DNA of 43,150 nucleotides from a virus. Location of the stretch: positions 1 through 43,150 of IMG/VR virus record IMGVR_UViG_3300049440_000140. The stretch is one strand, 5' to 3'. Under the pieces are notes generated by a model. It saw only the letters and a list, made by a program, of their open reading frames with translations, searched no databases and was not told the DNA's origin. Positions within the stretch are counted from its first letter, which is position 1; the number at the start of each line of letters is the position of its first letter. Below are positions 4,627 to 43,076 of this stretch, one piece after another. Made by a program: the position numbers and the translations under genes.

Positions 4627-4632
4627 GCCGCT

Positions 4633-4661
4633 ATAATAGCGGGCTAGTGCCAACGGGGCAA
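4633..4661 (-). promoter_or_regulatory. Promoter of the sugar cassette (probably leaderless)
   Basis: Reading leftward: -35 TTGCCC (4661-4656), 17-nt spacer, -10 TATTAT (4638-4633), then 6 nt to ATG 4626. The spacer end and -10 carry TAGCCCGCTA (4646-4637), reverse complement of the TAGCGGGCTA found in the early promoters. A start of transcription about 7 nt after -10 would fall on or next to the ATG. Confidence 0.55.
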
Positions 4662-25542: not shown

Positions 25543-26709
25543 TTATCCGCCCGCAGCTACAGGGCGGCGGATGATCCGATTGATGGCCTCATCCACATTG
25601 CGAGGTTTGGTTTGCGGCGTGGCGTTGGCGTTGCCAGCGTTCCCACCAACGGGACGGGTTGCGATGCCCGCGTTCCGTGCGTTGAGTTGTGCCTTGGCGC
25701 GTTCCGCTTTCGCCGCATTGAGTTCTTCCGTCTGCTGCGTCTGGCTGGCAGTCCGCTTGGCCGCTTCGGCTTTCACCCACTCCTTATAGGGGCCAGTCAC
25801 GTACTGTTCGACCTGCTGGAAATGCTGTGGCGGAATGACGCCGTTCACCATCAGAGGCGCCAAGGCCAGCATCAGTTGTCCAGCGGCGAGTTCCTTTCCA
25901 ACCAGTCCTTCGGCTTCGGCGATGGTGGGTCCGAGGCGTTGGCCCAGGACATTCACGGCTTGGCCAATCATCTGTTCGTGCGCGGTCTGTTGACGGCGCG
26001 TTTCTTCGGCGGCGAGTGCCGCTTCCCGCTGCTGCAATTCTGCTGAACGACGCTGGAACACCTTATCCGGCGTGTTCTCATTCGCGTACGCTTGCCGACG
26101 CGCGATGACGACATCATCCGGCGCCGAGAGGAGTTCGATCGCGAGATCTTGGAGTCCTTTGTTGGTCTCCTGCAACTGCTGAAGGTTCTGCTGGAACTGC
26201 GGCACCTGCGTTCTGAGTGTATCCAGTTCTCCCCGCGACCGCTGCATCGCCAGTCCATCCTTCGCCAATCGCATCAGGCCGGGGAGATCCTTCTGGTAGA
26301 CCTTAGTCTCGCCGGTCTGCTTGTCTTTGATGGAGAGTTCGTACGTGCGCGTCGAATCCATGTCCGAGAACTGGCCCGTCTTTGGATCGCGCGCTCGCAG
26401 TACGACTTCTCCCTCCGGTTCGTCCGACTTGATTTCCGCCACCATGCTCGGCGCAGCCTCGACAACGGGCGCTTCCGTAATGGGTGGGACGGTATCGGTC
26501 GGACCAGCCGCTTCCTCGGTTCGCAACTCCTCGAGCGCGTCGTCCGCGACGGGGCGACGGGTGATTTTGTCGATGACACCCTGAACATCGTTCAGTTTGG
26601 GCGTTTCGACGACCGGAGTTTCGACAACAGGCGTTTCAACGACCGGTGCAACGGTCTCAGTGACAACGGGTGCTGCGGTGGGGGCGGGGGCGATTGCCGG
26701 CGCGGTCAT
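25543..26709 (-). CDS. Capsid scaffolding protein
   Basis: 388 residues, starting in an ATGA overlap with the portal stop. Ala/Pro/Val/Glu-rich N-terminus with a triple VVETP repeat, a long charged helical core with coiled-coil pattern (LDTLRTQVPQFQQNLQQLQE, RRSAELQQREAALAAEETRR), and a basic Ala/Asn end. The motif VIDKITRRPVADD (~44-57) returns at the C-terminus as AINRIIRRPVAAGG. Portal-scaffold-capsid order and composition support the call. Scaffolds guide procapsid assembly and then leave. Confidence 0.8.
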   Translation of the reverse strand: MTAPAIAPAPTAAPVVTETVAPVVETPVVETPVVETPKLNDVQGVIDKITRRPVADDALEELRTEEAAGPTDTVPPITEAPVVEAAPSMVAEIKSDEPEGEVVLRARDPKTGQFSDMDSTRTYELSIKDKQTGETKVYQKDLPGLMRLAKDGLAMQRSRGELDTLRTQVPQFQQNLQQLQETNKGLQDLAIELLSAPDDVVIARRQAYANENTPDKVFQRRSAELQQREAALAAEETRRQQTAHEQMIGQAVNVLGQRLGPTIAEAEGLVGKELAAGQLMLALAPLMVNGVIPPQHFQQVEQYVTGPYKEWVKAEAAKRTASQTQQTEELNAAKAERAKAQLNARNAGIATRPVGGNAGNANATPQTKPRNVDEAINRIIRRPVAAGG

Positions 26710-29144: not shown

Positions 29145-29512
29145 GATGCGACGCCCATCCACGGCGTTTCAACCTGCGGGGTCAGTGGGAGGAGTTTGGT
29201 CCGCACCTGATCCCAGTCCTCGAGGTCGGCATAGAGCGCCATGATCGTCTGCCGCTCTTGGTCCTGAGCGAAATCATCCTCCCAGGACATGATGCGGCCC
29301 ACCAAATCGTCCGGCATTGGTGCCGGTTTCTTGGGCGCAGCGACTCGGGACTTCTCCCACCGGAACCGATCTTCGGCCAATTCGACTTCGCGTTCCCGGA
29401 AGGAGCGGTCAGCTTCCCACCGACGGCCGAGGGTGCGCGTGATGGTCTGAACGGCCTCGATCGTCGTCCAGCAGACCAGTCCCACGCAGATGACGGCGGC
29501 GATCGCGTTCAC
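29141..29512 (-). CDS. N-anchored helical protein before the portal
   Basis: 123 residues from GTG 29512 (GTGA overlap). Hydrophobic N-terminal helix (MNAIAAVICVGLVCWTTIEA) followed by a charged helix (LGRRWEADRSFREREVELAE, DRFRWEKSRVA) and a short acidic domain (SWEDDFAQDQERQTIMALYA). One membrane pass or signal anchor is likely. Function unknown. Overlaps the portal start, so its translation is coupled to it. Confidence 0.6.
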   Translation of the reverse strand: MNAIAAVICVGLVCWTTIEAVQTITRTLGRRWEADRSFREREVELAEDRFRWEKSRVAAPKKPAPMPDDLVGRIMSWEDDFAQDQERQTIMALYADLEDWDQVRTKLLPLTPQVETPWMGVAS

Positions 29513-31295: not shown

Positions 31296-32858
31296 TCAGT
31301 TCTCCCCAAACTGTTGGTCCGAGGAGTCGATCCCCCGGCGTTGCCCATACTCCCGCTTGTCGATCACGTCCTTGTTCATCCCTTCGATCTCGAACGGGTC
31401 CAGCATCCGGTACCTCCCATCCGCCATCTCCCACGGCGCCGGCTCCGCCTTCCCGTCCGCCACATTCGTCAACCTACGAACCGGAAGTGGCTGCTGCGGC
31501 TCGAGCGATGGTGTGGCTAGCGCAAACGAGGTCTCATCCGCCCCATCATCGCCGTTCAGCCCCCGCTCATTCGCATCACGCTTGGCCGGCACATTCGGGT
31601 TCACCTCATCCGGGATGAGCGATGCTAACTCCTGCAAACACCTGCGGTTCCCCGGCGTATCTAAAAACTTGAGCCGCACCGTCCCATTCAGGAGCGGCCC
31701 TTGCCCCACACTGAACAAGCGTCGCAACACTTTCGCGCGCGCCAACTTGTCCACATTCGCCTGTTCGACATGGATCGAGTACCGACCCCACACATCCGCC
31801 ACCGTCTCCGCCGCCGCGACATGCGCCCGTCTCACAGCAAAGAAATCGGCACCCCCATACACCATCCCCAAACACCGCCGATCCACCGTTCCCGCCACCG
31901 TCGCCGCCTGCTCCTCATCCTGAAACCGGTGCATGTACAACGTGTCCAACTTGTAGATCACGTCCCCCACCCGCACATACGACCCGAACGTACACGGATG
32001 CGAAAAGCCCCAGTCCGCCGCACCCCACCACTCATGCCAGTCCTCAAACTTCGGCAAATCATCACGTTGCACCACCAACTCCGACAAATCCATCAGCTCG
32101 GGATAGAACAACCCAAGCGCCATGTCCCAGTCCCCATCCCGCAACGCCGCTTGTACCGAAGGTGGGAGATCACTCATCCCCTTCCAGTAATCCGAGGGCA
32201 ACAACGGGTTATCCAACGCCGTCCCCGGCACATACCCCCGCGTCCGCCCACTCGATGGATCCGTCCACCGCACCCCCCCATCCTTCCCACACGGCACCAC
32301 AAACCGCTCCCGCAACCACGCCCGACCTGGTCCAATCGGGTTCGCTGACGCCCGCGCACGAAGCGGTACTGTCGGATCCGTACTCCTGATACGAGCTAAA
32401 ATCATCTGCCATACCACCTCATCCGGCACCAACGACAACTCGTCCCACATCACCGCCGTGTACTCCGGCCCCAAATACTCCGTGATCTCCGCCAACGTCT
32501 TGGCATGCGCCACCTGCACCGTCCCACCACCCGGATGCTTCCACCGACTATCCTGCCCATCCCACTCAAACCCCAACTGCGGATATAACACCTGCATCCG
32601 GTCCCGTATATCCAACGTGTCCTTGTAAACCGTCCGAAAAAAGATCACCCGAGCCCGCGGATGATGCGCATACGCCGCCGCCAACCCGATCAATACCGCC
32701 GTCTTCCCCGGACCCGCCGCCCCGCCAAGCAACGTCTCAAACGCCCCATTCGAGGCAGCACGCATCTGAAACCCCTTCAACGGCTGCCATACCACCGGCC
32801 TCTCCCCTATCTCCTGCGGATACGCAAACAGATCCGGATTGTACAGTGGGGCTCCCAT
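31296..32858 (-). CDS. terL: Terminase large subunit
   Basis: 520 residues. ATPase: Walker A GGAAGPGKT (45-53), Walker B AVMWDE (135-140) with catalytic Glu, and coupling motif region RARASANPIGPGRAWL. RNase H-like nuclease: WGAADWGFSHPC (first Asp), MVYGGADFFAVRR (second acidic strand) and GADETSFAL (third Asp). AGGAG lies just before ATG 32858. It packages DNA through the portal and cuts it. Coding-strand wobble bases are mostly G, whereas neighbouring genes prefer C, suggesting a separate origin of this gene. Confidence 0.93.
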   Translation of the reverse strand: MGAPLYNPDLFAYPQEIGERPVVWQPLKGFQMRAASNGAFETLLGGAAGPGKTAVLIGLAAAYAHHPRARVIFFRTVYKDTLDIRDRMQVLYPQLGFEWDGQDSRWKHPGGGTVQVAHAKTLAEITEYLGPEYTAVMWDELSLVPDEVVWQMILARIRSTDPTVPLRARASANPIGPGRAWLRERFVVPCGKDGGVRWTDPSSGRTRGYVPGTALDNPLLPSDYWKGMSDLPPSVQAALRDGDWDMALGLFYPELMDLSELVVQRDDLPKFEDWHEWWGAADWGFSHPCTFGSYVRVGDVIYKLDTLYMHRFQDEEQAATVAGTVDRRCLGMVYGGADFFAVRRAHVAAAETVADVWGRYSIHVEQANVDKLARAKVLRRLFSVGQGPLLNGTVRLKFLDTPGNRRCLQELASLIPDEVNPNVPAKRDANERGLNGDDGADETSFALATPSLEPQQPLPVRRLTNVADGKAEPAPWEMADGRYRMLDPFEIEGMNKDVIDKREYGQRRGIDSSDQQFGEN

Positions 32859-33795: not shown

Positions 33796-33850
33796 AGTCA
33801 AGCGTTTCTCGATCTTTCCTCTTGACACAGTAGCGGGCTATATGTACTCT
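33796..33850. promoter_or_regulatory. Divergent control region between late and early arms
   Basis: Rightward: TTGACA (33822-33827), 17-nt spacer with TAGCGGGCTA (33831-33840), TACTCT (33845-33850), 29 nt before ATG 33880. Leftward: TTGACT (33801-33796) faces the late genes but its -10 is weak (CACATT-like, near ATG 33765). The rightward promoter is the clearest near-consensus one in the window. Confidence 0.6.
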
Positions 33851-33860
33851 AGTGTTGTCT

Positions 33861-33879
33861 CTAACTGAGGTCCGCCAGA
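33861..33879 (+). repeat. Start-associated sequence, copy 1
   Basis: CTAACTGAGGTCCGCCAGA directly before ATG 33880. Shares CTGAG...TCCGCCA with copies at 34165, 34720 and 35791; GAGG serves as ribosome site. Confidence 0.55.
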
Positions 33880-34164
33880 ATGCGACGCAATTACGAGGAA
33901 GATAACGAGACGTTCTCGAGCGAGAACTACACGGTGCGTGGCTGGAGCGGGATCGCTTTCTATGTGCAGGGTTGGGAGACTGAGCCCGACGAGGATACTG
34001 AGTGGTCAGGTTACGAGACGAGGACTGGCCGCGTGCTCGTCGTGATGGTCGGTGATGATCGGCAGCACGCGGTGGACGCGGATGACCTGACGCCGCTAGC
34101 TGAGGACGAGTTTTGCCACTCCTGCGGGCAGATCGGTTGTGGACACAACGTTCCCTCCCGCTAG
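33880..34164 (+). CDS. First early protein, small with a Cys/His cluster
   Basis: 94 residues. Acidic N-terminal half with beta strands (YTVRGWSGIAFYVQGWETEP, TGRVLVVMVGDDRQHAVDAD) and a C-terminal FCHSCGQIGCGH zinc site. As the first gene of the early arm under the strongest promoter it is likely made soon after infection and may act on the host. No family recognised. Confidence 0.7.
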   Translation: MRRNYEEDNETFSSENYTVRGWSGIAFYVQGWETEPDEDTEWSGYETRTGRVLVVMVGDDRQHAVDADDLTPLAEDEFCHSCGQIGCGHNVPSR

Positions 34165-34202
34165 TTCCCTTCCAATCCCTGAGTGAGAGGAGATTTCCGC
34201 CA
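34165..34202 (+). repeat. Start-associated sequence, copy 2
   Basis: The whole gap between two early genes: TTCCCTTCCAATCCCTGAG, an extra GAGAGGAG, then TTTCCGCCA before ATG 34203. It is the longest copy and includes a strong Shine-Dalgarno. Confidence 0.6.
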
Positions 34203-34424
34203 ATGAAAGAGCGCTGCAATGCATGCGGCCAGGCGCGCGTCGCGGGCAAGTCTGACGTGATGCTTTGGAAGGCCGTTGACGGCGAGCATGTCGAGTATCC
34301 GAAGCTTCACCGGGAATGCGTCGGGAATTGGATCTGCGCCGACGGATCGCTGGTGACGATCAGCTTCCACAGCTTTTTGGCCGGGTCGCGCAGTCCTGAC
34401 AATTCGCTTCTGCCAGCCCGATAG
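34203..34424 (+). CDS. Small zinc-finger early protein
   Basis: 73 residues. MKERCNACGQARVAG, later HREC and a further Cys (CVGNWIC), make a CxxC...HxxC type metal site in a compact fold. The start is set by the conserved leader and AGGAG at ATG 34203; an upstream in-frame ATG lies inside the preceding gene. Function unknown. Confidence 0.65.
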   Translation: MKERCNACGQARVAGKSDVMLWKAVDGEHVEYPKLHRECVGNWICADGSLVTISFHSFLAGSRSPDNSLLPAR

Positions 34425-34503
34425 CACGTCTCGCGCGGTAGCTGGCAGGTCCGGAGTCATAACCGGCGCGCGATTGTAGGCTCACTATTCACAAGGGGTT
34501 ACG

Positions 34504-34719
34504 ATGCGCGGTTCACTGACGCGGTTCGGGATTGACTTGCAGCGAATGGACGCCGAGGACGATGCCGCGCGGCGCGAACGGTTTGAAACGCCATCGCAAC
34601 CGTTGGCCGATAGACGGCGGGCGCGGTACATCGACCTGCTGGACGCAACCGTTGGGCCGATTGACGATACGTGGCGCGAGATCATGCGCGTCCGTGCGAT
34701 CCGCGAAGTGTCCCGTTAG
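34504..34719 (+). CDS. Small basic helical early protein
   Basis: 71 residues with AAGGGG six bases before ATG 34504. Mostly helical and Arg-rich (QRMDAEDDAARRERFETPSQ, LADRRRARYIDLLDATVG, WREIMRVRAIREVSR). No cysteines, unlike its neighbours. The 79-nt gap before it shows no clear promoter. Function unknown. Confidence 0.6.
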   Translation: MRGSLTRFGIDLQRMDAEDDAARRERFETPSQPLADRRRARYIDLLDATVGPIDDTWREIMRVRAIREVSR

Positions 34720-34747
34720 TCCCCTTCTACCCTGAGAGTATCCGCCA
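34720..34747 (+). repeat. Start-associated sequence, copy 3
   Basis: The whole gap between stop and next ATG: TCCCCTTCTACCCTGAGAG then TATCCGCCA. Aligns with copies 2 and 4. Confidence 0.6.
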
Positions 34748-35095
34748 ATGTCAAACGCTTATAACGGCTGGACCAATTACGAAACGTGGAACGCCAAGCT
34801 CTGGATGGACAATGACGAGGGTTCGCAGGGCTATTGGGCCGAGCGCGCGCAGCAGCTCTATAACGATGCCGAAGCGGATCATCCGTTCACCCGAGACGAA
34901 CGCGCGACACTGGACCTGTCCGACGAGTTGAAACATGAGCATGAGGCGAACATGCCCGAACTCGAGCCTTCCTTCTACTCCGACATTCTGAACGCGGCAC
35001 TGTCTGAGGTGAACTGGTACGAAATCGCCGAGTCGCTGATCGGAGACGTCGACAAAGAGGCCGAGGTTACGGCCGATGCTGAGGATGGCGAGTAG
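34748..35095 (+). CDS. DUF7249-type phage protein
   Basis: 115 residues. The opening NAYNGWTNYETWNAKLWMDN is the hallmark of a small protein family widespread on phages and plasmids (YNGWTNYETWxVxLWxDN). It is followed by helices (GYWAERAQQLYNDAEADHPF, DELKHEHEANMPELEPSFY) and an acidic end. The biochemical role of the family is not known to me. Start ATG 34748 follows the conserved leader. Confidence 0.75.
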   Translation: MSNAYNGWTNYETWNAKLWMDNDEGSQGYWAERAQQLYNDAEADHPFTRDERATLDLSDELKHEHEANMPELEPSFYSDILNAALSEVNWYEIAESLIGDVDKEAEVTADAEDGE

Positions 35096-35098
35096 TTC

Positions 35099-35127
35099 TT
35101 GCCCTTCACTAGCGGGCTATATACTTT
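35099..35127 (+). promoter_or_regulatory. Promoter of the HTH gene (probably leaderless)
   Basis: TTGCCC (35099-35104), 17-nt spacer containing CACTAGCGGGCTA (35107-35119), TACTTT (35122-35127), then 7 nt to ATG 35135. TATACT at 35120-35125 is an alternative -10 with a 15-nt spacer. Confidence 0.55.
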
Positions 35128-35134
35128 GGTCTAC

Positions 35135-35383
35135 ATGACTGAACTCTGGCGAAAACGCTGGCTCAAGCGAGACGCGACCGCTCGGCACCGGATCACCTGG
35201 ACCGAGCTGGTCGCCTGGGCTGAATCAGCCGGCGTCCATCGCACGCATGCTCAAAAAGTCTTCCGAGGCGAACGGGCGTCGGCAAAGCTCGAGGCGGCTT
35301 TTCAGGAGCACTTCGGTTTCCCGATGCGCGGGGCAGCTTACGAGTATCAGGACGGGAGTCGATACGGGAAGGCTGCCCCATGA
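35135..35383 (+). CDS. Helix-turn-helix DNA-binding protein
   Basis: 82 residues from ATG 35135. ITWTELVAWAESAGVHRTHA then QKVFRGERASAKLEAAFQEH resembles a Cro/C1-type HTH: helix, turn with G-V-H, recognition helix, then the FRGER...LE pattern. It has its own promoter containing the TAGCGGGCTA palindrome, so it may read that element, including in the promoters at 33822 and 35756; this link is inference. No Shine-Dalgarno is seen, matching a leaderless transcript. Confidence 0.65.
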   Translation: MTELWRKRWLKRDATARHRITWTELVAWAESAGVHRTHAQKVFRGERASAKLEAAFQEHFGFPMRGAAYEYQDGSRYGKAAP

Positions 35384-35646
35384 TCCCGACATTCACCAGT
35401 TACGTCTTCGAGTACCAGCGGGAGGGTGATCCAATGACGAAAGCAGAGGCGCGGCGCATTGCGACGAGATTGTTCGGGGCACCGGGCTACGTCCGCGACC
35501 GTGGGGCGGAACTGAAACCGCGTTATCTGGTCCTGACCGACGAAGGATCTTCGTCTACCATTCGCGGCGCGGGCCACACATGGGAGCAAGCGACCGCCGA
35601 CGCACTACGCACACGCGCTGCCTCGATTGAGAAGGGTGGCCGATGA
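35380..35646 (+). CDS. Small early protein
   Basis: 88 residues from ATG 35380 (ATGA overlap with the HTH gene, GGAAGG upstream). A second start at ATG 35434 has an even better GGGAGGG and would give 70 residues beginning MTKAEARRIATRLFGAPGYV. The domain is mixed alpha/beta (LKPRYLVLTDEGSSSTI, TWEQATADALRTRAASIEKG). No family recognised. Confidence 0.6.
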   Translation: MIPTFTSYVFEYQREGDPMTKAEARRIATRLFGAPGYVRDRGAELKPRYLVLTDEGSSSTIRGAGHTWEQATADALRTRAASIEKGGR

Positions 35647-35759
35647 TCCGTCTCCGAATCGCGCTGTCAGTAGCCGCGGCGATTATGTGGGTGCTGGCCT
35701 ATCGACGAGTCACGCGTGACATCCGTTCTGTTGCACTCGAGCGTGCAAACAGTCCTTGA
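35643..35759 (+). CDS. Tiny membrane protein (38 residues)
   Basis: ATG 35643 overlaps the upstream stop as ATGA; TGA 35757-35759. Product MIRLRIALSVAAAIMWVLAY followed by a charged tail (RRVTRDIRSVALERANSP) is one hydrophobic helix plus a basic end. The coupled start and clean membrane profile suggest it is real. Its last codons overlap the -35 box of the next promoter. Confidence 0.5.
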   Translation: MIRLRIALSVAAAIMWVLAYRRVTRDIRSVALERANSP

Positions 35760-35784
35760 CTTTCAGTAGCGCGCTATTAACTTG
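35756..35784 (+). promoter_or_regulatory. Early promoter upstream of the Cys-rich gene
   Basis: TTGACT (35756-35761), then AGTAGCGCGCTA (35765-35776, perfect TAGCGCGCTA palindrome) and TTAACT (35777-35782, 15-nt spacer). It resembles 33822-33850 but has a weaker -10. ATG 35815 follows with a start-associated sequence. Confidence 0.45.
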
Positions 35785-35790
35785 CCGTTG

Positions 35791-35814
35791 TCCCTTCACT
35801 GAGTCATTCCGCCA
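35791..35814 (+). repeat. Start-associated sequence, copy 4
   Basis: TCCCTTCACTGAGTCATTCC then GCCA before ATG 35815; aligned with copies 1-3. It lacks a good Shine-Dalgarno, so the conserved part is not simply the ribosome site. Confidence 0.55.
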
Positions 35815-36264
35815 ATGCCTTGCCTCCCGTTCGATTCCTGCCTCCATCCGCGCCTCGAGGGCGATGTATCAGGCGGGACGTTCGACGACCATCGCACCGT
35901 CCGCGGTCTCTGCCCCGACTGTTGCGAGTACATCGTCGTAACCGACTACGCCTCCACGCTTTCCACCTCGCGCAAGATGACGCAGCAAGAACTCGTCGCG
36001 TGGCACAGGGAGACGTGTTTCGGGATCACCTGCACCGAATGTGACACCGACTTCGGCGCAGTTCACCAGGACGAATGCGGCGATACATGCCAACGCGCGC
36101 CGGGCAGCGACATCTGCTTGCAATGCTCGGCCCAGAACGAGGCGATGGCCTATTACGGCTCGCTGTATCGTGCTGGCGCACTCGGTCCTGTCCGTTCCGA
36201 ATACAACGACCGCGAGGAGTTCGAGGCCGCAGTTATCGACGCCGGGATGGGGCATCTCCTATGA
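35815..36264 (+). CDS. Cys-rich multi-zinc-site early protein
   Basis: 149 residues with three Cys groups: LCPDCCEY (~33), FGITCTECDTDF...HQDEC (~69-90) and CLQCSAQNEAM (~105). The pattern suggests two or three zinc ribbons in tandem. The C-terminal part is an acidic helix (NDREEFEAAVIDAGM). No family recognised. Follows its own promoter. Confidence 0.65.
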   Translation: MPCLPFDSCLHPRLEGDVSGGTFDDHRTVRGLCPDCCEYIVVTDYASTLSTSRKMTQQELVAWHRETCFGITCTECDTDFGAVHQDECGDTCQRAPGSDICLQCSAQNEAMAYYGSLYRAGALGPVRSEYNDREEFEAAVIDAGMGHLL

Positions 36265-36446
36265 GCAGCGACCGCCCCGAAGTCGATACCTGCGACCGCT
36301 GCGACCTCATCGCCTATCCGCTCTATATCTGCGCCGGCGACCGCGTTTGCTCGACCTGCGTCAAGTCCGACGCGAGCGAAAACCTTTGCCGCGCGTGCGA
36401 GGAAACGATGGAGAACTGGACGAGGGATGACCATGCCCGCGCCTAA
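36261..36446 (+). CDS. Three-CxxC zinc-ribbon mini-protein
   Basis: 61 residues from ATG 36261 in an ATGA overlap. CDRC (11), CSTC (~31) and CRAC (~43) give three CxxC pairs in a 35-residue span, i.e. one or two zinc ions in a very small fold, then an acidic tail. Function unknown; likely a protein- or nucleic-acid-contact module. Confidence 0.6.
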   Translation: MSSDRPEVDTCDRCDLIAYPLYICAGDRVCSTCVKSDASENLCRACEETMENWTRDDHARA

Positions 36447-36651
36447 ATACCACCTACCCCTTGGAGTGCAGGACGCCGAGGCAAAACGAGCAATGGCGAG
36501 CACTTGCGCCGTCCGCGACTTCGGTCCCGATACCATGCTCTGGGTCGTCGCTGGCACCGTCAAACGCTTGCGCGAGAAGGGCTATACCGTGACCGGCGAG
36601 TTTACCGACGATGGCGGCTATCGCATGTCGGTAACTGGAGCCCCGGAATGA
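36433..36651 (+). CDS. Small early protein before the annealing protein
   Basis: 72 residues from ATG 36433, with GAGGG seven bases before it (ATG 36427 is in frame but lacks spacing). Helix AEAKRAMASTCAVRDF followed by two strands (DTMLWVVAGTVKRLREKGYT, GEFTDDGGYRMSVTG). Coupled by ATGA to the recombination gene, so it may assist it. No family recognised. Confidence 0.6.
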   Translation: MPAPKYHLPLGVQDAEAKRAMASTCAVRDFGPDTMLWVVAGTVKRLREKGYTVTGEFTDDGGYRMSVTGAPE

Positions 36652-37424
36652 GCGGCGAGAATCGTTGGCGAGACATTGCCGCACCGCTCCCGGCCAGCGC
36701 GATTCAGTGGCGGCAGGATGGCAAGGCGACTGCGCGCGGCGGGAAGTTCTTTGCTCGCTTTGTGGCCTACATCGACGCGCAATTCGTGCGCGAACGTCTC
36801 GATTCAGTCGTCCCCGGCGAATGGACCCTAGCCCTAGATCCGCTGCCAACGCTGGATATGGCGTCGAACAACGAGGAGCCGTTCGCCTTCAAGGCTCGCC
36901 TCACGATCGTCGGCGTCGCGCGCGAGGACGTCGGATCAGGCAAGGACTACAAAACGGCCAGCTCCGATGCCTTCAAGCGTGCCGCGGTTCGCTTCGGCAT
37001 CGCGCACGAACTGTACGCCTATGAACAGAATTGGGTCGAAGTGGACGGCGATGGCAAATACGCCAAGCCAGTCGAGGACCCAGCATCTGCCTATGCCAAG
37101 CGGCAGTCTCGTGCCTCTCAGAGCCAGCCAGAGGCCAAAGCGCCCCAGTCTGGCAGTCCTGCCAAGTCGGGCGGATACGTGAAGGTCATGCCCTTTGGCA
37201 AGTTCAAGGGGACCTCGATGGGCGAACTGGCCTCGGCGGAACTCGAGCGCACCAAGAAATGGTGTACCGAAACCGACGCGGCGAAGTTCAAGGATCTCAT
37301 CGCCACCTGTAACTCTATCCTCGCAGACCGATCGCTAGGCGTGCCAGTCACGGACGAGGAACGCGACGCGATTGCAACCGCGCGTCTCGCAGCGCCGGCC
37401 GATGACCTCGACTTGCCCTTTTAG
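36648..37424 (+). CDS. Rad52/Rad22-family single-strand annealing protein with SSB-like tip
   Basis: 258 residues from ATG 36648 (ATGA overlap). The N-terminal domain fits Rad52-type phage annealing proteins: FFARFVAYIDAQFVRERLDS, ARLTIVGVAREDVGSGKDYK, then SSDAFKRAAVRFGIAHELYA, the conserved D(A)xKRAAxxFGI..LY helix. A Pro/Ser/Gln linker leads to MPFGKFKGTSMGELASAELE, a PFGKxKG module like ExoX C-terminal/DUF3820. The last residues DDLDLPF mimic the SSB C-terminal peptide that recruits repair proteins. It probably anneals phage DNA; the tip may dock host partners. Confidence 0.8.
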   Translation: MSGENRWRDIAAPLPASAIQWRQDGKATARGGKFFARFVAYIDAQFVRERLDSVVPGEWTLALDPLPTLDMASNNEEPFAFKARLTIVGVAREDVGSGKDYKTASSDAFKRAAVRFGIAHELYAYEQNWVEVDGDGKYAKPVEDPASAYAKRQSRASQSQPEAKAPQSGSPAKSGGYVKVMPFGKFKGTSMGELASAELERTKKWCTETDAAKFKDLIATCNSILADRSLGVPVTDEERDAIATARLAAPADDLDLPF

Positions 37425-37820
37425 ATGACCATCTATCCGGCCCCGAAACCCGCCAAGCGGGAGAAGCAAGCCCGAAAGCCCATGAAGAAACGGAAGCCCT
37501 CGGCTAAAGAAACGGCGCGGAGCATGGGAACGCTGGCACGCAGACTGTTCGTCGCGAGTCTGCCCTGTGCGGCCTGTGGCATCGTCGGCTATTCGGTCTC
37601 GGCGCACCTGTTGGGCAACGGTGGCATCGGGCGCAAGAAGGACCACACGACAACCGGCCCCCTTTGCCGGGCGCGCGGCATTCTCCCAGGCTGCCACAAC
37701 ATGTACGATGAGCGGCGATACCTATTCGACTCGATGTACCCGGAGTTCAACGCGGTCGAGGTCGCAGCCGAAACGGAGCGGGCGTGGGTTCAGCGTAGCG
37801 ACGCGGGAGGGGAGCGGTGA
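37425..37820 (+). CDS. HNH-like nuclease (Ref/DUF968-type zinc finger)
   Basis: 131 residues, starting directly after the annealing-protein stop. Basic N-terminus (KREKQARKPMKKRKPSAKET). The core LPCAACGIVGYSVSAHLLGN then GGIGRKKDHTTTGPLCRARG and GCHNMYDERRYLFD gives CxxC...AH...GRKxD...LC...CH, the beta-beta-alpha-metal pattern of HNH-like phage recombination nucleases. It follows an annealing protein and fits a RusA-containing repair set. Specific family uncertain. Confidence 0.65.
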   Translation: MTIYPAPKPAKREKQARKPMKKRKPSAKETARSMGTLARRLFVASLPCAACGIVGYSVSAHLLGNGGIGRKKDHTTTGPLCRARGILPGCHNMYDERRYLFDSMYPEFNAVEVAAETERAWVQRSDAGGER

Positions 37821-38005
37821 GCCGATTTCAGAAAGCGACGGCGGCATGGGACCGGGAAGTCGATGAGGTCGCGGCGTCGCTCGTCGAGGGCGGCATGGTG
37901 CCCTTCGAGGCGATGATCAAGGCAACGCAGATCGTGCGCGAGCGTCGCCAGCAACGAAAACGCAGTCCAGTGGCGTCCCCTGAGAGAGAGCCGAGCAATG
38001 GGTGA
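37817..38005 (+). CDS. Small helical early protein
   Basis: 62 residues from GTG 37817 with a strong GGGAGGGGAG before it. Helices FQKATAAWDREVDEVAASLV and PFEAMIKATQIVRERRQQRK, then a tail SPVASPEREPSNG encoded by the start-associated repeat of the next gene. Function unknown. Confidence 0.6.
   Translation: MSRFQKATAAWDREVDEVAASLVEGGMVPFEAMIKATQIVRERRQQRKRSPVASPEREPSNG
37977..37997 (+). repeat. Start-associated sequence, GAGAG type
   Basis: CCCCTGAGAGAGAGCCGAGC plus A before ATG 37998, lying inside the upstream gene where it encodes PEREPSN. Confidence 0.55.
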
Positions 38006-38219
38006 CCCAAAAAGCGCTTTTCAGGTCGGCGATTCTGCTGAGTTCCGCGCCGAATCGCGATTCAACAATAAGACCCGTGACGGGCAAATCGTCACCATCG
38101 AGTCGCGTCGCGCGGCGTCGGTATTCGACTTCAACGTCTGCTTTCCTGACGGAACGCGCATGCCAGCGAAAGCGCACGAGCTGTTTCCGCTCGCCGCCGA
38201 TCCCGCCCATGTCCGCTAG
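37998..38219 (+). CDS. Small SH3-like barrel protein
   Basis: 73 residues, overlapping the upstream gene by 8 nt. Five short strands (FQVGDSAEFRAESRF, DGQIVTIESRR, VFDFNVCFPDGTRMPAKAHE, LFPL) resemble an SH3/agenet-like barrel. It parallels the protein at 41818-42051 (YTIVFDDGQICYADTDELSP), so the two may be diverged paralogues. Possible nucleic-acid or protein binding. Confidence 0.6.
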   Translation: MGDPKSAFQVGDSAEFRAESRFNNKTRDGQIVTIESRRAASVFDFNVCFPDGTRMPAKAHELFPLAADPAHVR

Positions 38220-38433
38220 CGATCCCTCCGAAATCTGCCGTGGCGACAAGGCGTGTGGGCGCGAGATCCCGGCTGGCCAGGAATACCGCTGCCTCGATTG
38301 CGACGCAGTGATGCACAAGGACTGCCTACGCTGGCATTGCGGCGCCGACGAGAAGGACCGCGCCATCTACCGGCTTGAAGGTATCAACCAGGAACTACGC
38401 AACGCGCTAGAGCGAATCGCGGAGACGAGATGA
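38209..38433 (+). CDS. Treble-clef zinc-finger (C1/PHD/RING-like) protein
   Basis: 74 residues from ATG 38209. ICRGDKACGREIPAGQEYRC, LDCDAVMHKDCLRWHC gives C-x5-C...CxxC-x4-HxxC-x4-HxC, the cross-braced spacing of C1/PHD/RING fingers, then a charged coiled-coil helix (GINQELRNALERIAETR). Such fingers are unusual in phages and usually bind proteins. It opens with MSASDPSE, the start motif shared with following genes. Confidence 0.6.
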   Translation: MSASDPSEICRGDKACGREIPAGQEYRCLDCDAVMHKDCLRWHCGADEKDRAIYRLEGINQELRNALERIAETR

Positions 38434-38627
38434 GAACATATTGCCCGGTCTGCCAGGGTATCGGTTCGATCGTCGATCAGACGCTATTCAAGAACGGTCC
38501 TGTCTTCTGGGGCGGCCCGCTGCCGCGCGTGACGTGTCCGAACTGCGCGGGCGAGAAGTTCGTCGGCACGCCTGACGTAGCCAATCCGCTCATCCCCGAC
38601 GATTTGGAGATTCCGCGTGGACGCTAG
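38430..38627 (+). CDS. Zinc-ribbon protein with DnaJ-type CxxCxG pair
   Basis: 65 residues, ATGA overlap with the finger gene and GGAGACGAG upstream. CPVCQGIG (5-12) and CPNCAGEKF (~36-44) match one DnaJ-type CxxCxGxG half-site pair forming a single zinc. The tail is acidic and Pro-rich. May be a chaperone-like or host-binding factor; unproved. Confidence 0.6.
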   Translation: MRTYCPVCQGIGSIVDQTLFKNGPVFWGGPLPRVTCPNCAGEKFVGTPDVANPLIPDDLEIPRGR

Positions 38628-38949
38628 CGATCCCTCGGGCGCCGAGCCGACTGTGAAATCGCTTCAACGCGAGCTGCGTGAACAGCGCAAGGCGGTGCGG
38701 CGGCTATCGGACTATCTGCTGCTCTCGCTCGACCAGCTTGACGAGGCGGTTGGCTCGCGGCGAGACATTCCGTCCGACGTGAGTACGTGGCTTGCCAAGC
38801 TCGCGAACGCGCTGGATCAGGAAAACGACCGCGTTCGCTTCTTCACGCTCGGCGTCGATTTTCGCAAAGACAATAAGCCGCGCGCTGTCGCAGCGATTCG
38901 CAAACGTCTCAACCTTCCCGCGCGCGCAGAGGCATCCGATGGACGCTGA
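38617..38949 (+). CDS. Coiled-coil early protein with shared DPSGAEP start
   Basis: 110 residues from GTG 38617. Opens MDASDPSGAEP, then a charged helix (TVKSLQRELREQRKAVRRLS, DYLLLSLDQLDEAVGSRRDI) and a second helical half (TWLAKLANALDQENDRVRFF ... AAIRKRLNLPA). Overlaps the upstream gene by 11 nt. Function unknown. Confidence 0.65.
   Translation: MDASDPSGAEPTVKSLQRELREQRKAVRRLSDYLLLSLDQLDEAVGSRRDIPSDVSTWLAKLANALDQENDRVRFFTLGVDFRKDNKPRAVAAIRKRLNLPARAEASDGR
38629..38646 (+). repeat. Gene-start repeat, copy A
   Basis: GATCCCTCGGGCGCCGAG, encoding DPSGAE of the coiled-coil protein. Exact copies at 38993-39010 and 39261-39278; a GATCCCTC partial copy at 38221-38228. Confidence 0.7.
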
Positions 38950-39262
38950 CGACGGTAGCAACGCCCCGTTCATGTCTGAGTCTGCTCCGGGCGATCCCTC
39001 GGGCGCCGAGCCGCTTTTCGGTACACACATTCGCGAGGCAATCGACGTGCTGCGCGGGAAGTCTGAACCAGAACCGTGCGCGCATTGCTGGCATCAGTGG
39101 GGTTCATCGGGAGGCGGAATCTCAGCCACGGAGACTTGGATGTGCGGCACGCACCGCTGCTGTTTCTGCGGGGAAACGAAGCGATACGATATTCGCACGT
39201 CCATTGAGCCGCCGCGAAAACACGGCCCCTATCACTACGAGATTCTGACCCATGTCGGCTGA
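38939..39262 (+). CDS. Zinc-ribbon early protein with HGPY motif
   Basis: 107 residues from ATG 38939, six bases after GAGG (a second ATG at 38972 is in frame). Contains GDPSGAEP, then PCAHCWHQWGSSGG and CGTHRCCFCGETKRY, a CxxC...CxxCC-type zinc site, and a final PRKHGPYHYE. The pattern resembles small phage-encoded treble-clef proteins of unknown role. Confidence 0.65.
   Translation: MDADDGSNAPFMSESAPGDPSGAEPLFGTHIREAIDVLRGKSEPEPCAHCWHQWGSSGGGISATETWMCGTHRCCFCGETKRYDIRTSIEPPRKHGPYHYEILTHVG
38993..39010 (+). repeat. Gene-start repeat, copy B
   Basis: Exact GATCCCTCGGGCGCCGAG encoding DPSGAE near the start of the HGPY zinc-ribbon protein. Confidence 0.7.
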
Positions 39263-40298
39263 TCCCTCGGGCGCCGAGATGCGCTCCCCAAACGAAGTTC
39301 TGAGCGCGAAGCGAATTGCGGAACTGGTCTCAACGCTAACCGATCCCGAGACGTGCGACACGTACGATAAAGACGCGCTGCCGGATGATACTCTGGCGGT
39401 GTGTGCGTCGCACGAGGCGTTGCGTTCGCGGCTTGAATCCGAGGTCTCGCCGCGCTCCTCGGGAGCGACGAGCGATTCCCTGCTCTGCGTCAGATGCGGC
39501 TATCCCGAGTCGCTGCACGCGGAACTGCGCCCCTTGCACCCGTTCCAGCCATTTCACGACGAGTTGCCCGCGCCGCGCTCCTCGGGAGGCGCACCGCTAT
39601 CCGTCGAGCAAATTGCGGATCACGTCGCATACGCAGCGTCCGTCGTCGCCCCGCAGCCGCGTAATGGTTCTGTCGCAAGGATTTACGCGCTCTGCGACTC
39701 GCACGAAGCGTTGCGTACTCAGGTCTCCGCGCTCCGGCAGGAGGCCGCGCAAGCCGTCGCGAACGCCCGAGTGAGGCGCAAATACATCGACGCAGCAGCG
39801 GCCGCGCGTCAGGAGGCCGAGACCCTCACCAGGCAGCGCGATGCGGCGATCCGAGAAATCAGCGTAATTGCACGGGAGGCCGAGACCCTACGCAAGCAGC
39901 TCGAGGGATTGCAGAAGTTGAACGCCGAGAACGTGAAGATCGGCGCGGGCGCACAGCGAGTCGCGTCCGCATCGCTCGCCGCGTTCAGTGAAGTGAGTCA
40001 GGCCGAAACCGCATCGCGCGCTGAAATCGGACGGCTGACTCGGGAGGCCGAGACCCTACGGGGCCAACTGGACGCCGAGAAGGCGCGGTTGGACTTCCTC
40101 TCGTCATGGACGCGGGGCGATTCAGGCATATGCCCGCCCGGCAATCACGGCGGCGACCCGGGTACGTGGCTGTTCTTTCGCCAGGATGATGCGAAGGGCG
40201 ACAGCTACGGCCTCTGGAACGATGTAGAAACGGAAGGCCCCACGCTTCGCGAAGCTATCGACGCCGCCCGCGTTGCCGCCCCACGAGAGCCGAAATGA
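39252..40298 (+). CDS. Repeat-containing coiled-coil early protein
   Basis: 348 residues, opening MSADPSGAEMRS. Two diverged units (AVCASHEALRSRLESE and YALCDSHEALRTQVSAL) and two PRSSG-A/G segments show internal duplication. A zinc pair sits between them (LCVRCGYPESLH). Residues ~160-285 are a coiled coil built on repeats of EAETLxxQ. The C-terminus (LDFLSSWTRGDSGI, DAKGDSYGLWND, LREAIDAAR) is a small domain common at the end of phage accessory proteins. Role unknown. Confidence 0.65.
   Translation: MSADPSGAEMRSPNEVLSAKRIAELVSTLTDPETCDTYDKDALPDDTLAVCASHEALRSRLESEVSPRSSGATSDSLLCVRCGYPESLHAELRPLHPFQPFHDELPAPRSSGGAPLSVEQIADHVAYAASVVAPQPRNGSVARIYALCDSHEALRTQVSALRQEAAQAVANARVRRKYIDAAAAARQEAETLTRQRDAAIREISVIAREAETLRKQLEGLQKLNAENVKIGAGAQRVASASLAAFSEVSQAETASRAEIGRLTREAETLRGQLDAEKARLDFLSSWTRGDSGICPPGNHGGDPGTWLFFRQDDAKGDSYGLWNDVETEGPTLREAIDAARVAAPREPK
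39261..39278 (+). repeat. Gene-start repeat, copy C
   Basis: Exact GATCCCTCGGGCGCCGAG encoding DPSGAE, 9 nt after ATG 39252. Confidence 0.7.
39449..39465 (+). repeat. Intragenic direct repeat, first copy
   Basis: GCCGCGCTCCTCGGGAG, repeated exactly at 39572-39588; each encodes PRSSG. The CCTCGGG part also resembles the gene-start repeat. Confidence 0.55.
39572..39588 (+). repeat. Intragenic direct repeat, second copy
   Basis: Exact second copy of the 17-nt repeat at 39449-39465, encoding PRSSG in the same protein. Confidence 0.55.
40278..40294 (+). repeat. Start-associated sequence, CCCCACGAGAG type, copy 1
   Basis: GCCCCACGAGAGCCGAA before ATG 40295, identical to 40472-40488. It also encodes the APREPK end of the upstream gene. 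Confidence 0.65.
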
Positions 40299-40492
40299 GA
40301 ACGCGCGTCGGAGTATCCACGACTGGTGGAACGTACTGCCCCGAATGTGGCACGCTCGTTCCCCTCGGATTTGGCGTCACTCATCCGTGCTTGGGCGACG
40401 AATCGCTGCGCGTCATCATGCGAACCGATCTCACTATCTCCCTGGGCGGGTTCACCGTCACCGTCCCACGCGCCCCACGAGAGCCGAAATGA
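40295..40492 (+). CDS. Small zinc-site early protein
   Basis: 65 residues in an ATGA overlap. YCPECGTLVPLGFG and THPCLGDE give a CxxC...HxC site, then two beta strands (LTISLGGFTVTVP) and an APREPK tail encoded by the next start-associated repeat. Function unknown. Confidence 0.6.
   Translation: MRTRVGVSTTGGTYCPECGTLVPLGFGVTHPCLGDESLRVIMRTDLTISLGGFTVTVPRAPREPK
40472..40488 (+). repeat. Start-associated sequence, CCCCACGAGAG type, copy 2
   Basis: Exact copy of 40278-40294, before ATG 40489; the identity continues through ATGA (21 nt in all). Confidence 0.65.
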
Positions 40493-40692
40493 TCCAGAGT
40501 ATCCGCGTCACGCGCGACGACCAGAACCACGACGTGCATCTGATCCGCGAGGACGACGCGCCAAGGGATCTCGTCGTCATTCTCGGGATGCTGCGCGCCG
40601 CAGAACATATCGCCCTACACGCATCCGATACCGTGAATGAGACGTTTACTGGACCGCAACTTCACCGTTCGGCCCCACGAGAGGACCTGTAG
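40489..40692 (+). CDS. Small alpha/beta early protein
   Basis: 67 residues in an ATGA overlap. IQSIRVTRDDQNHDVHLIRE then DLVVILGMLRAAEHIALHAS forms a strand-helix fold without cysteines, and the tail SAPREDL is encoded by the following start-associated repeat. No family recognised. Confidence 0.6.
   Translation: MIQSIRVTRDDQNHDVHLIREDDAPRDLVVILGMLRAAEHIALHASDTVNETFTGPQLHRSAPREDL
40672..40692 (+). repeat. Start-associated sequence, CCCCACGAGAG type, copy 3
   Basis: GCCCCACGAGAGGACCTGTA plus G directly before ATG 40693; the first 12 bases match copies 1 and 2. Confidence 0.55.
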
Positions 40693-40935
40693 ATGGCCTA
40701 TTTCAGCGGTCAGGGCATCGTGTTCGCGGCGCCTCAGCCCTACCCCGACTATCCCGGTTGGGAGACGATCGACTGCGGCTGCTGCGCAGGAATTGAATGG
40801 GGCGATCCCGGCCCGCGCGAATGTCGCCAATGCGGCGGCGGGGGCTATCTCGCGCGACACATCGCGAGCGGCGCGGTGGCTCTCTATCCAGGTGGCCCGT
40901 TTCGCTGGCGTGAAAAGCCAAAGGTGAACCGATGA
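40693..40935 (+). CDS. Zinc-ribbon early protein
   Basis: 80 residues, ATG abutting the previous TAG. IDCGCCAGIEWGDPG and CRQCGGGGY form a CxxC...CxxC ribbon with a DnaJ-like CGGGG tail. Aromatic N-terminus (YPDYPGWETI). It ends in an ATGA overlap with the methyltransferase gene. Confidence 0.6.
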   Translation: MAYFSGQGIVFAAPQPYPDYPGWETIDCGCCAGIEWGDPGPRECRQCGGGGYLARHIASGAVALYPGGPFRWREKPKVNR

Positions 40936-41600
40936 GCCGCGATCCGTCCGCCCTCGACTCCGGGGGCTCCCCGCGACTCTTGGATTTGTTCTGCGGCGCT
41001 GGCGGAGCATCGCAGGGCTACAAGCGCGCGGGCTTCCATGTGACGGGCGTGGATAATCGCGCGCAGCCCCACTACGCGGGCGATCGGTTCATTCGCGCTG
41101 ACGCCATGACGTTCTCATTCGAAGGGTTCGACGCGATTCATGCGTCGCCGCCCTGTCAGGCATACACCAAGGCGCGGAACCTCCAAGGGAACGCTCACCC
41201 CGATCTCGTCGGCCCGATGCGCGAGCGGCTGATTGCCGCGGGCGTGCCCTATGTGATCGAGAACGTCATCGGCGCCCCGCTCATCAACCCGCTGCTGCTC
41301 TGCGGAATGATGTTCGGACTGAACGTGTACCGTCATCGCCTGTTCGAGTCATCCGTGCCGCTGCCCTTCCTCCTGCATCCGATGCACCACAAGCCGCACG
41401 TCAAGATGGGCCGTCCCGTCAAAGAGGGAGACATCGTGCAAGTCGTTGGCCACTTCTCGAATATCGGGTATGCGCGGCGCGCAATGGACATTCCCTGGAT
41501 GACGCAGAAGGAGCTGGCACAAGCGATCCCGCCGGGCTACACAGAGTTCGTTGGCCGCGAATTGCTCGCTCACATCCGAACCGCCGAGCGTGTCGCATGA
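40932..41600 (+). CDS. C5-cytosine DNA methyltransferase
   Basis: 222 residues. Motif I LLDLFCGAGGASQGY (16-30), motif IV ASPPCQ with catalytic Cys 75, motif VI YVIENV, motif VIII NVYRHRLFE and a motif X-like region ELAQAIPPGYTEFVGRELLA are all present. It is much shorter than typical 300-400 aa enzymes, with a small target-recognition region of about 60 residues. It probably methylates phage DNA against host restriction; no cognate nuclease is seen. Opens MSRDPSA, like the DPSGAE genes. Confidence 0.9.
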   Translation: MSRDPSALDSGGSPRLLDLFCGAGGASQGYKRAGFHVTGVDNRAQPHYAGDRFIRADAMTFSFEGFDAIHASPPCQAYTKARNLQGNAHPDLVGPMRERLIAAGVPYVIENVIGAPLINPLLLCGMMFGLNVYRHRLFESSVPLPFLLHPMHHKPHVKMGRPVKEGDIVQVVGHFSNIGYARRAMDIPWMTQKELAQAIPPGYTEFVGRELLAHIRTAERVA

Positions 41601-41821
41601 CTGAGCCCCCTCGGGACTTCCCGTCCGCCCCGCGATTTCGCCTTAGCGCGACGGCGCGAGATGCAATGCGCGTTGAGCGGCAGTTGGAGGCGATTGCGAG
41701 CCGGATGAGAGGCGTGGACACGTCGCTGCTCCTCGCCTGTATCCAATGCGCGATGTATCGGGTCCGAGGCCAGCCCGACGAGCCGCACGCCAATCTCGCG
41801 AATTGGAGAGGCATCCAATGA
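41597..41821 (+). CDS. Small helical early protein
   Basis: 74 residues in an ATGA overlap with the methyltransferase. Helical and basic (FRLSATARDAMRVERQLEAI, ASRMRGVDTSLLLACIQCAM). One CxxC lies inside a helix, unlikely to be a ribbon. Function unknown. Confidence 0.6.
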   Translation: MTEPPRDFPSAPRFRLSATARDAMRVERQLEAIASRMRGVDTSLLLACIQCAMYRVRGQPDEPHANLANWRGIQ

Positions 41822-42051
41822 CCGCTAACCAGTCCCCCGAGTTCCCCTCCGTGGGAGCGAGAGCGCGATTCACGCCGAAGCGATTCATGCCGGGCTCAAT
41901 CGTCGAGCGGTATGGCGGGCGCGAATGCGAGATGGAGGAGTTTTCGGGCAATCTCTACACCATCGTGTTCGACGACGGCCAGATATGCTACGCTGACACC
42001 GACGAACTCTCTCCGCTCCCCGCCGCGCCGCTAAATGAGGAGACAGAATGA
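41818..42051 (+). CDS. Small SH3-like barrel protein (second copy)
   Basis: 77 residues, ATGA overlap with GGAGAGG upstream. The strands GARARFTPKRFMPG, SIVERYGGRECEME, NLYTIVFDDGQICYADTDE and LSPL parallel the protein at 37998-38219 in layout. Possible paralogue; role unknown. Confidence 0.6.
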   Translation: MTANQSPEFPSVGARARFTPKRFMPGSIVERYGGRECEMEEFSGNLYTIVFDDGQICYADTDELSPLPAAPLNEETE

Positions 42052-42353
42052 GCATGGATTCACGAACGCCCGCGGAGCGCACGCGCGACCGCGTAACTGC
42101 TCGCTATTCCTGGATCGCTGCCGCTGATGCTAAGGGTCTGTTAAGCGACATCGACGAGCTGCAAGCGGACGCGAATCTCGCGAAGCAACTGTGCGCCATT
42201 CTCATGCGGTACTGCGGCGAGGCTGGCCCGCCTGAAGGCGAGGGTGCCGTTGAGACACTGGCCCGCATCGCCGACGAGCTGGACGCGCATCGTGCCGAAA
42301 TTGCGCCCGTGAACGTGAGCGACGTGCCACCACAGGAGAACGCCGGAACGTGA
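42048..42353 (+). CDS. Helical early protein
   Basis: 101 residues in an ATGA overlap, with GAGGAG six bases before ATG 42048. Helices TRDRVTARYSWIAAADAKGL, LLSDIDELQADANLAKQLC and AVETLARIADELDAHRAEI predict a coiled bundle. No motif of known function. Confidence 0.6.
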   Translation: MSMDSRTPAERTRDRVTARYSWIAAADAKGLLSDIDELQADANLAKQLCAILMRYCGEAGPPEGEGAVETLARIADELDAHRAEIAPVNVSDVPPQENAGT

Positions 42354-42886
42354 TAAAGATTCGCAAGAGTGAGACGGCCGACACCCGGACGTGCGACTTC
42401 CGCAACGTGACTCGCGAGACGTTGGGGGCTAGCTCGCGGCAGCACATTGCCGACGTCAGCGTGGCTCTCGCTCATTTCGCGCAGATGCTACACCGCGCCG
42501 CCGCGATGCACGACGTCGATAAGCTCACCGATCTCGATTCGTTCCATGCCGACTTCATCACCGGCTTCGACGCGGAGCATCAAGGCTGGTGGGACCGTCA
42601 CCGCTCGCTCAACCGGCATCACCTGATGCAACTCGACGGCGTGCCGGACGACGTGAACCTGATCGACGTGCTGGACTTCATCGCCGATTGCACGATGGCG
42701 GGCATGGCGCGAAGCGGCGACGTCTACGCCCTCGCCCTACCCGATGGCTTGCTAGAGCGCGCGTTCCACAACACCGCCGCGCTCCTGAAAAGCGCTGTCG
42801 TCGTCGAGCAACTTTCTGGCGCGTCTCCCGAGGCTGAGACACCCGCCGCGTCCGTCGAGACGCCCCCTGAGAGACCCAATGGCTGA
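42350..42886 (+). CDS. HD-like/DUF5662-type early protein
   Basis: 178 residues from GTG 42350 (GTGA overlap). A His/Asp-rich helical core (HIADVSVALAHFAQMLHRA, AAMHDVDKLTDLDSFHADF, WDRHRSLNRHHLMQLDGVPD, LIDVLDFIADC) resembles small HD-type or DUF5662 phage proteins in which HD and HH pairs bind metal. A phosphohydrolase role is possible but unproved. The tail ETPPERPNG is encoded by the next start-associated repeat. Confidence 0.55.
   Translation: MIKIRKSETADTRTCDFRNVTRETLGASSRQHIADVSVALAHFAQMLHRAAAMHDVDKLTDLDSFHADFITGFDAEHQGWWDRHRSLNRHHLMQLDGVPDDVNLIDVLDFIADCTMAGMARSGDVYALALPDGLLERAFHNTAALLKSAVVVEQLSGASPEAETPAASVETPPERPNG
42862..42878 (+). repeat. Start-associated sequence, CCCCTGAGAG type
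   Basis: GCCCCCTGAGAGACCCA before ATG 42879, inside the end of the HD-like gene. Confidence 0.55.
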
Positions 42887-43076
42887 CTTGGGAGCGTTGC
42901 CGCGAACGCGGCCAGGCGACGTCACGGTGAGCGCCAACAACGGTGACGGCGTGGTCACGTTTCACATGCCGCGCGAGAAAGTGACGAAGAAAGAAAAGGC
43001 GTTGGCCGAGGACACGATGAAACGCATAACCAACTACTTGCGTGCGGCGGGCGGCACCCCTGAGAGGCAGCCATGA
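42879..43076 (+). CDS. Small early protein
   Basis: 65 residues, overlapping the upstream gene by 8 nt. Short strands (DVTVSANNGDGVVTFHMP) then a basic helix (EKVTKKEKALAEDTMKRITN, YLRAAGG) and a TPERQP tail encoded by the next start-associated repeat. Unknown function. Confidence 0.6.
   Translation: MADLGALPRTRPGDVTVSANNGDGVVTFHMPREKVTKKEKALAEDTMKRITNYLRAAGGTPERQP
43055..43072 (+). repeat. Start-associated sequence, CCCCTGAGAG type, last copy
   Basis: CACCCCTGAGAGGCAGCC before ATG 43073; also encodes TPERQP of the upstream gene. Confidence 0.55.

Follow-up and report, generated by a model that had tools for sequence, protein, structure and literature searches.

The window analysed here is the whole of the IMG/VR virus record IMGVR_UViG_3300049440_000140 (W; 43,150 bases), from an uncultured bacterial virus. 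Its late genes lie on the minus strand, among them terminase (31296-32858), portal (26706-29162) and the major head protein (24161-25480), and its small early genes occupy the plus strand from 33880 to the end of the record. Ten of the 29 early start codons (about one third) carry a short repeated sequence just upstream, and the remainder use ordinary GGAG-type sites or other repeated linkers. Four related records were compared with the window. G1 (48,791 bases) is related in the early genes and some others, G4 (36,541 bases) in early cassettes only, and G2 and G3 in the late genes only, with about 64-81% DNA identity in patches.

An initial annotation, made from the window alone, had described the ten sites as one start-associated motif. 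All ten start codons and their upstream sequences are at the positions it claimed, but the sites fall into two classes. In group A (genes 33880, 34203, 34748 and 35815) the repeat is the end of an untranslated leader. In group B it is contained in the upstream gene or forms its end, and it overlaps or adjoins the stop-start junction. Group B copies are therefore translated as PER or PRE, and the annotation was correct on these C-termini, which read SPEREPSNG, APREPK, SAPREDL, TPPERPNG and GTPERQP.

33861-33879, plus strand: group A leader copy CTAACTGAGGTCCGCCAGA before gene 33880; a short GA indel sets the G1 copy at 44686 apart
34165-34202, plus strand: group A leader copy before gene 34203; the downstream gene has an unrelated counterpart at this place in G1
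34720-34747, plus strand: group A leader copy before gene 34748; the upstream gene has an unrelated counterpart at this place in G1
35791-35814, plus strand: group A leader copy before gene 35815; the downstream gene has an unrelated counterpart at this place in G1
37976-37997, plus strand: group B linker CCCCTGAGAG before gene 37998; a block 99.6% identical to G1 has its left edge here, with a different upstream gene
40277-40298, plus strand: group B linker CGCCCCACGAGAGCCGAAATGA at the stop-start overlap, gene 40295
40471-40492, plus strand: group B linker before gene 40489, identical to the copy at 40277-40298
40672-40692, plus strand: group B linker GCCCCACGAGAGG before gene 40693
42863-42878, plus strand: group B linker before gene 42879; a block 96.5% identical to G4 has its left edge here, with a different upstream gene
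43056-43072, plus strand: group B linker before gene 43073

Placement and recurrence of the repeats

The group B consensus had been given as CCCC(TG/AC)GAGAG. The pattern itself stands, but the notation should read CCCC(T/AC)GAGAG, with the forms CCCCTGAGAG and CCCCACGAGAG. It occurs six times in the window, each time 15-21 nt 5' of an early start, and is absent from the minus strand; about 0.07 copies are expected. The annotation had called for a scan of related genomes, and out of sample all three copies in G1 and all four in G4 also lie 15-21 nt before a start, with no copies elsewhere in these two records. G2 and G3 have none, and no minus strand carries one. Certain G1 and G4 copies are orthologues of window copies, and those at G1 4001, G4 22727 and G4 23607 precede other genes. 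Other parts of the repeats are placed in the same way. CCCTGAG is present five times in all 43 kb of both strands, and all five copies are at most 40 nt upstream of early starts, as are three of three window copies of CCCACGAGAG and three of three of CTGAG..TCCGCCA. Only about 1.3% of the sequence of both strands falls in upstream windows of early starts, which puts this placement far beyond chance, with the caveat that the motif was chosen after the fact. No group B or CCCTGAG copy precedes a late gene.

A test that was not fitted to the motif gives only moderate support for sharing within the window alone (p ~0.01-0.02). The best 7-mer common to five starts was equalled by 18 of 1000 random position sets, and the result of the 8-mer test by 10 of 1000; that these values are not lower is partly because the early region is itself repetitive. 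Direct 14-mer repeat pairs number 48 in the early region of the window, compared with 0.7 in shuffles. The cassette regions contain 48, 58 and 88 such pairs, against 0-1 in the late region of the window and 4-19 in other late regions of G1 and G4. The strong evidence for the motif is its placement together with its recurrence in the relatives, and the observation is confirmed as real and more extensive than first reported.

The searches did not bear out a wide distribution of the motif. Exact motif scans of IMG/VR gave matches only in G1, G4 and one further contig (L018). The latter has no similarity to the window or G1 and was taken as a chance match. The motif was not found in a scan of GTDB genomes, and a host search through the terminase gave no identification. 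Among phage records there was no near match, and the distant mode of the search gave only similarity to a methyltransferase gene; plasmids gave no match. On the minus strand at 627-4653, the window carries genes with FkbM methyltransferase, TPR and glycosyltransferase-like domains.

Linkers, gene identity and homology borders

The ten sites belong to a larger set. About ten short linkers (15-57 nt) were found at the early-gene junctions of the window, G1 and G4, either upstream of the ATG or as 5'-coding tags that encode peptides such as DPSGAE, EPPRDxPSAP and NQSPEFPS. The repeats just inside genes of the window, which the initial annotation had missed, are GATCCCTCGGGCGCCGAG (38629, 38993 and 39261; partly 38221), GAGCCCCCTCGGGAC (41603), CAGTCCCCCGAGTTCCC (41830) and ATCCGTCCGCCCTCGACTCC (40942), and they are also found at the starts of other genes in G1 and G4.

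38214-38228, plus strand: 5'-coding tag CGCTAGCGATCCCTC in gene 38209
38622-38649, plus strand: 5'-coding tag (ASDPSGAEP) in gene 38617
38991-39013, plus strand: DPSGAEP tag in gene 38939, with the sequence as in gene 38617
39261-39295, plus strand: DPSGAEM tag in gene 39252; 100% identical to G1 1523-1557
40932-40967, plus strand: 5'-coding tag MSRDPSALDSGG in the methyltransferase gene; matches the start of the unrelated G1 gene 2377 at 100% identity
41601-41634, plus strand: 5'-coding tag (EPPRDFPSAPR) in gene 41597; common to several G1 and G4 genes
41822-41874, plus strand: 5'-coding tag (NQSPEFPSVG) in gene 41818

Some genes, such as G1_2377 and G4_23069, contain tandem pairs of tags, and G4_24173 has the same tag at both ends. 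The open reading frame (ORF) at 39252-40298 is internally repetitive and mosaic, with REAETL and PRSSG repeats, and the order of its modules differs among the window, G1 and G4.

The linkers are decoupled from the identity of the genes they precede. The sequence CGAGAGCCGAAATG is located exactly 11 nt 5' of seven starts in the three genomes, and the encoded proteins belong to six families by BLASTP. Similarly, the tag EPPRD/EPSRD is borne by several unrelated protein bodies. Conversely, homologous bodies have different 5' ends in G1_3381 and G4_23069 (93% identical bodies) and in G1_2377 and G4_23623 (93%), and so do the homologous methyltransferases W_40932 and G1_5074 and the homologues W_40693 and G1_3556.

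The initial annotation had suggested that the motif may act as a boundary for gene shuffling, and the genome comparisons support this: blocks of homology to two relatives begin or end at the sites and border there on unrelated genes. For the window and G1, 33 of 53 block edges fall within 45 nt of a start, as do 28% of positions (p=2.6e-7), and 14 of 53 fall within 10 nt (6.5% expected, p=5e-6). Between G1 and G4, 22 of 40 edges are within 45 nt of a start (p=1e-4). The edges are not fully independent of each other. Individual joints are precise. Homology between the window and G1 stops at ATG+3 (34206), ATG+4 (34508) and ATG+9 (35824), and the genes behind these points are unrelated. It resumes at position -20 of gene 34748 and at 37976, which is the start of a CCCCTGAGAG element whose upstream gene differs. 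Homology to G4 (96.5%) starts at 42863, again with the CCCCTGAGAG element and a different upstream gene. G1 lacks the whole ORF of gene 35380-35646, and the gap runs precisely from one ATGATCC copy to the next, at consecutive start codons. In addition, the last 127 bases of G1 (L011 18665-18791) are the same as its bases 1040-1166 (L009) and begin at the linker CCGCTAGCGATCCCTCGG. Judging from its typical length, this repeat is likely an assembler k-mer overlap, that is, an assembly-graph junction, suggesting that two adjacencies, or gene orders, at CCGCTAGCGATCCCTCGG existed in one sample population.

Proposed cassette exchange and alternative explanations

Two genes in the window could supply the enzymes for exchange at these sites.

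36648-37424, plus strand: gene of a Rad52/Erf-like single-strand annealing protein (Pfam PF04098, Rad52_Rad22, 5.8e-07, 30 bits against a cut-off of 20.3; phrog_1097, 1.1e-16)
134-658, plus strand: gene of a RusA-type Holliday junction resolvase (Pfam PF05866, 5.8e-13)

The best explanation, to which we assign a probability of roughly 0.7, is that linkers at the junctions of shuffled early genes also serve as short stretches of homology for exchanging cassettes. The repeats look more like common couplings for trading genes than like a new control switch. The upstream linkers (group A, and group B with its weak GAG or GAGAG core resembling a Shine-Dalgarno (SD) sequence) would put a start codon right behind the preceding gene, and the downstream linkers would supply the next gene with a short 5' coding tag. 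Since many unrelated genes are preceded by the same linkers, gene borders share about 15-57 nt of homology. Recombination at the linkers, most likely single-strand annealing by the Rad52/Erf-like protein followed by RusA resolution, could swap, insert or delete whole small ORFs and leave them translatable. An incoming ORF would probably be translated by re-initiation from the preceding gene via the stop-start overlap. Annealing is proposed because the phage encodes Rad52-like and RusA-type proteins and because Rad52-like recombinases of phages recombine DNA that shares short or diverged homology (PMC3945230). The repetition of the linkers, their placement, their independence from gene identity and the position of homology block edges at start codons are observed, and we infer the identity of the recombinase, the translational coupling and any selection on the linkers.

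Several points weigh against this explanation. The enrichment of edges between the window and G4, taken alone, is weak (p=0.03-0.08), and the edges inside the repetitive ORF 39252 do not track starts. The linkers are carried by three genomes only, and G4 otherwise shares little with the window. The block edges at starts could partly reflect selection against intragenic joints instead of recombination at linkers. The part assigned to the annealing protein and RusA is suggested by the presence of their genes. The tags also keep their reading frame within each linker family, which leaves room for a role at the protein level.

A rival account, offered in part by the initial annotation, is a lineage-specific translation signal, maintained by selection because the ribosome, or a phage or host factor setting early translation, binds it; this appears unlikely. 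It would account for the constant position of the repeats, 15-21 nt before the start in group B and ending at the ATG in group A, on the early strand only. In the window, a C-run followed by an SD-like core is found at 10 of 29 early starts and 0 of 32 late starts (p=2e-4), but in G1, G4 and G2 its preference for early starts is not significant. The annotation was right that some copies lack a good ribosome site: five of the ten have anti-SD duplex energies of -2.2 to -3.2 kcal/mol, where random early 20-mers have a median of -3.0. As a set, the motif starts hardly depart from random (p=0.05) and do not surpass the other early starts, and a strong SD role was rejected. So was a hairpin or other RNA structure, since folding z-scores around the starts are +0.1 to +0.3. 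Aligned group A copies in the window and G1 differ about as much as their 92-93% identical flanks, with no excess conservation, and in more distant homologues of gene 34748 the motif is absent and the SD site is of the ordinary kind. A translation signal would also leave the repeats inside coding sequence unexplained. G2 (L012), whose early genes differ, has its own junction repeats, TCCTCCGAGACGACGGAGG and CCCTCCACCGGAGGAGG, at 737-755, 900-918, 9599-9615 and 9835-9851; they lie at -26 to -7 of starts and contain the canonical SD sequence GGAGG. These G2 repeats and the consistent position of the linkers suggest that linkers include the initiation region, and roles in exchange and in translation can coexist.

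It is quite unlikely that the linkers are passive leftovers without a role, produced by recent duplications and by illegitimate joints that survive near starts since other joints break genes. Selection alone would favour joints at gene borders, and the linkers are short, with hardly any difference among recent copies. However, individual linkers are found again at many joints, across three genomes and in differing gene orders, which fits homology-guided exchange and not random intergenic joints, and ordinary linker-free start codons have fewer shared short matches. The Pro/Ser/Arg-rich N-terminal tags and the PER/PRE C-termini could instead be functional peptides of early proteins, as the reading frame of each tag is kept on different proteins, even at the C-terminus (G4_24173 and G1_856). 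This seems very improbable: tagless homologues exist (G1_5074 compared with W_40932), an ORF starting at G4 25204 offers a different reading frame for the CCCCTGAGAG element at 25225, and the untranslated group A would have no explanation. Cassette exchange could also be extended to an evolved exchange format, in which this phage group would maintain a small common set of start modules, each a weak coupled ribosome site with a short N-terminal tag. Any small ORF caught between two linkers would then be expressed and tagged immediately, and cassettes would move between otherwise unrelated phages. We regard this extension as tentative and rather doubtful.

Group A leaders and known systems

The group A leaders at 34203 and 34748 are behind the stop codon of the preceding gene, whereas those at 33880 and 35815 are preceded by a repeated promoter- or operator-like stretch with the palindrome TAGCSSGCTA. 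These two stretches were recognized by inspection and did not score as promoters in a simple sigma-70 scan.

33820-33850, plus strand: promoter-like stretch upstream of gene 33880, with palindrome TAGCGGGCTA at 33831-33840
35757-35790, plus strand: promoter-like stretch upstream of gene 35815, with palindrome TAGCGCGCTA at 35767-35776

The palindrome has five copies in the window (4637, 7176, 33831, 35110 and 35767; 0.11 expected) and six in G1, and none in G2, G3 or G4. The copies are located just 5' of gene starts on both strands, in promoter-like stretches; one of them precedes the start at 4626. The palindrome is probably the operator of a phage regulator. The small gene 35135-35383 has its own palindrome and almost no leader, and is probably leaderless. 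Its product has a predicted three-helix core, with weak, non-significant matches to XRE/Cro-type DNA-binding proteins, and is a candidate for the regulator that binds the palindrome.

The nearest known kinds of repeat are the start-associated sequences (SAS) of cluster K mycobacteriophages, some copies of which have ESAS, imperfect 17-bp inverted repeats, upstream (PMC3203893), and the start-associated or upstream repeats of Microbacterium phage clusters EC, EF, EG and EI (PMC7302621). Like the SAS of clusters K and EF, the linkers include a short asymmetric repeat just 5' of non-structural gene starts, mostly on one strand (6/6 group B and 5/5 CCCTGAG copies), and serve different gene families, one linker preceding six distinct proteins. 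The motif was correctly said to differ from the cluster K sequence: GGGATAGGAGCCC with up to two mismatches has no match on either strand of the window, G1 or G4, and neither does the EF-type SAS at the same tolerance. The SAS pairs with the anti-SD sequence at -6.5 kcal/mol by the same method, compared with about -3 for the linkers. The linkers are therefore not members of the SAS, though they are placed and reused like them. Among the Microbacterium phages, cluster EI has members with an Erf-family system. Unlike the SAS with its one consensus, they comprise several families, many are inside the upstream gene at stop-start overlaps, and further repeats reach into coding sequence as tags. In a positive control with the cluster K phages Pixie and Anaya, 40 of 101 block edges are within 45 nt of a start (18% expected, p=3e-7), and short matches over SAS copies end at ATG+3 to +5. 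This concentration of edges at starts suggests that exchange joints may be the right reading of the SAS too.

A second parallel is with T4-type phages, whose mobile regulatory cassettes, reportedly described by Arbiol et al. in 2010, are said to be repeated expression signals at gene borders that are thought to mediate modular shuffling. These elements reportedly consist of an early promoter and a stem-loop between genes. The group A sites at 33880 and 35815 resemble them in carrying a repeated promoter-like, operator-like and leader unit. In contrast to the T4-type cassettes, the starts here give no stem-loop signal, and group B has no promoter and overlaps coding sequence.

Homology-driven mosaicism by Rad52-like phage recombinases (PMC3945230) and the short conserved sequences that flank modules in lambdoid phages (PMC2327257) are similar in that exchange takes place at short conserved module-flanking sequences and the annealing protein is encoded by the phage; in the window, too, homology block edges coincide with the element. 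A difference is that one linker here is common to many unrelated junctions within and between genomes, allowing reordering beyond replacement in place. The 2011 description of the SAS (PMC3203893) did not settle their function. The related genomes compared here directly show that SAS-like repeats sit where genes have been exchanged and are not tied to the genes that follow them. An old question can now be tested, whether SAS-like repeats are kept for translation or as the homology by which phages trade early genes.

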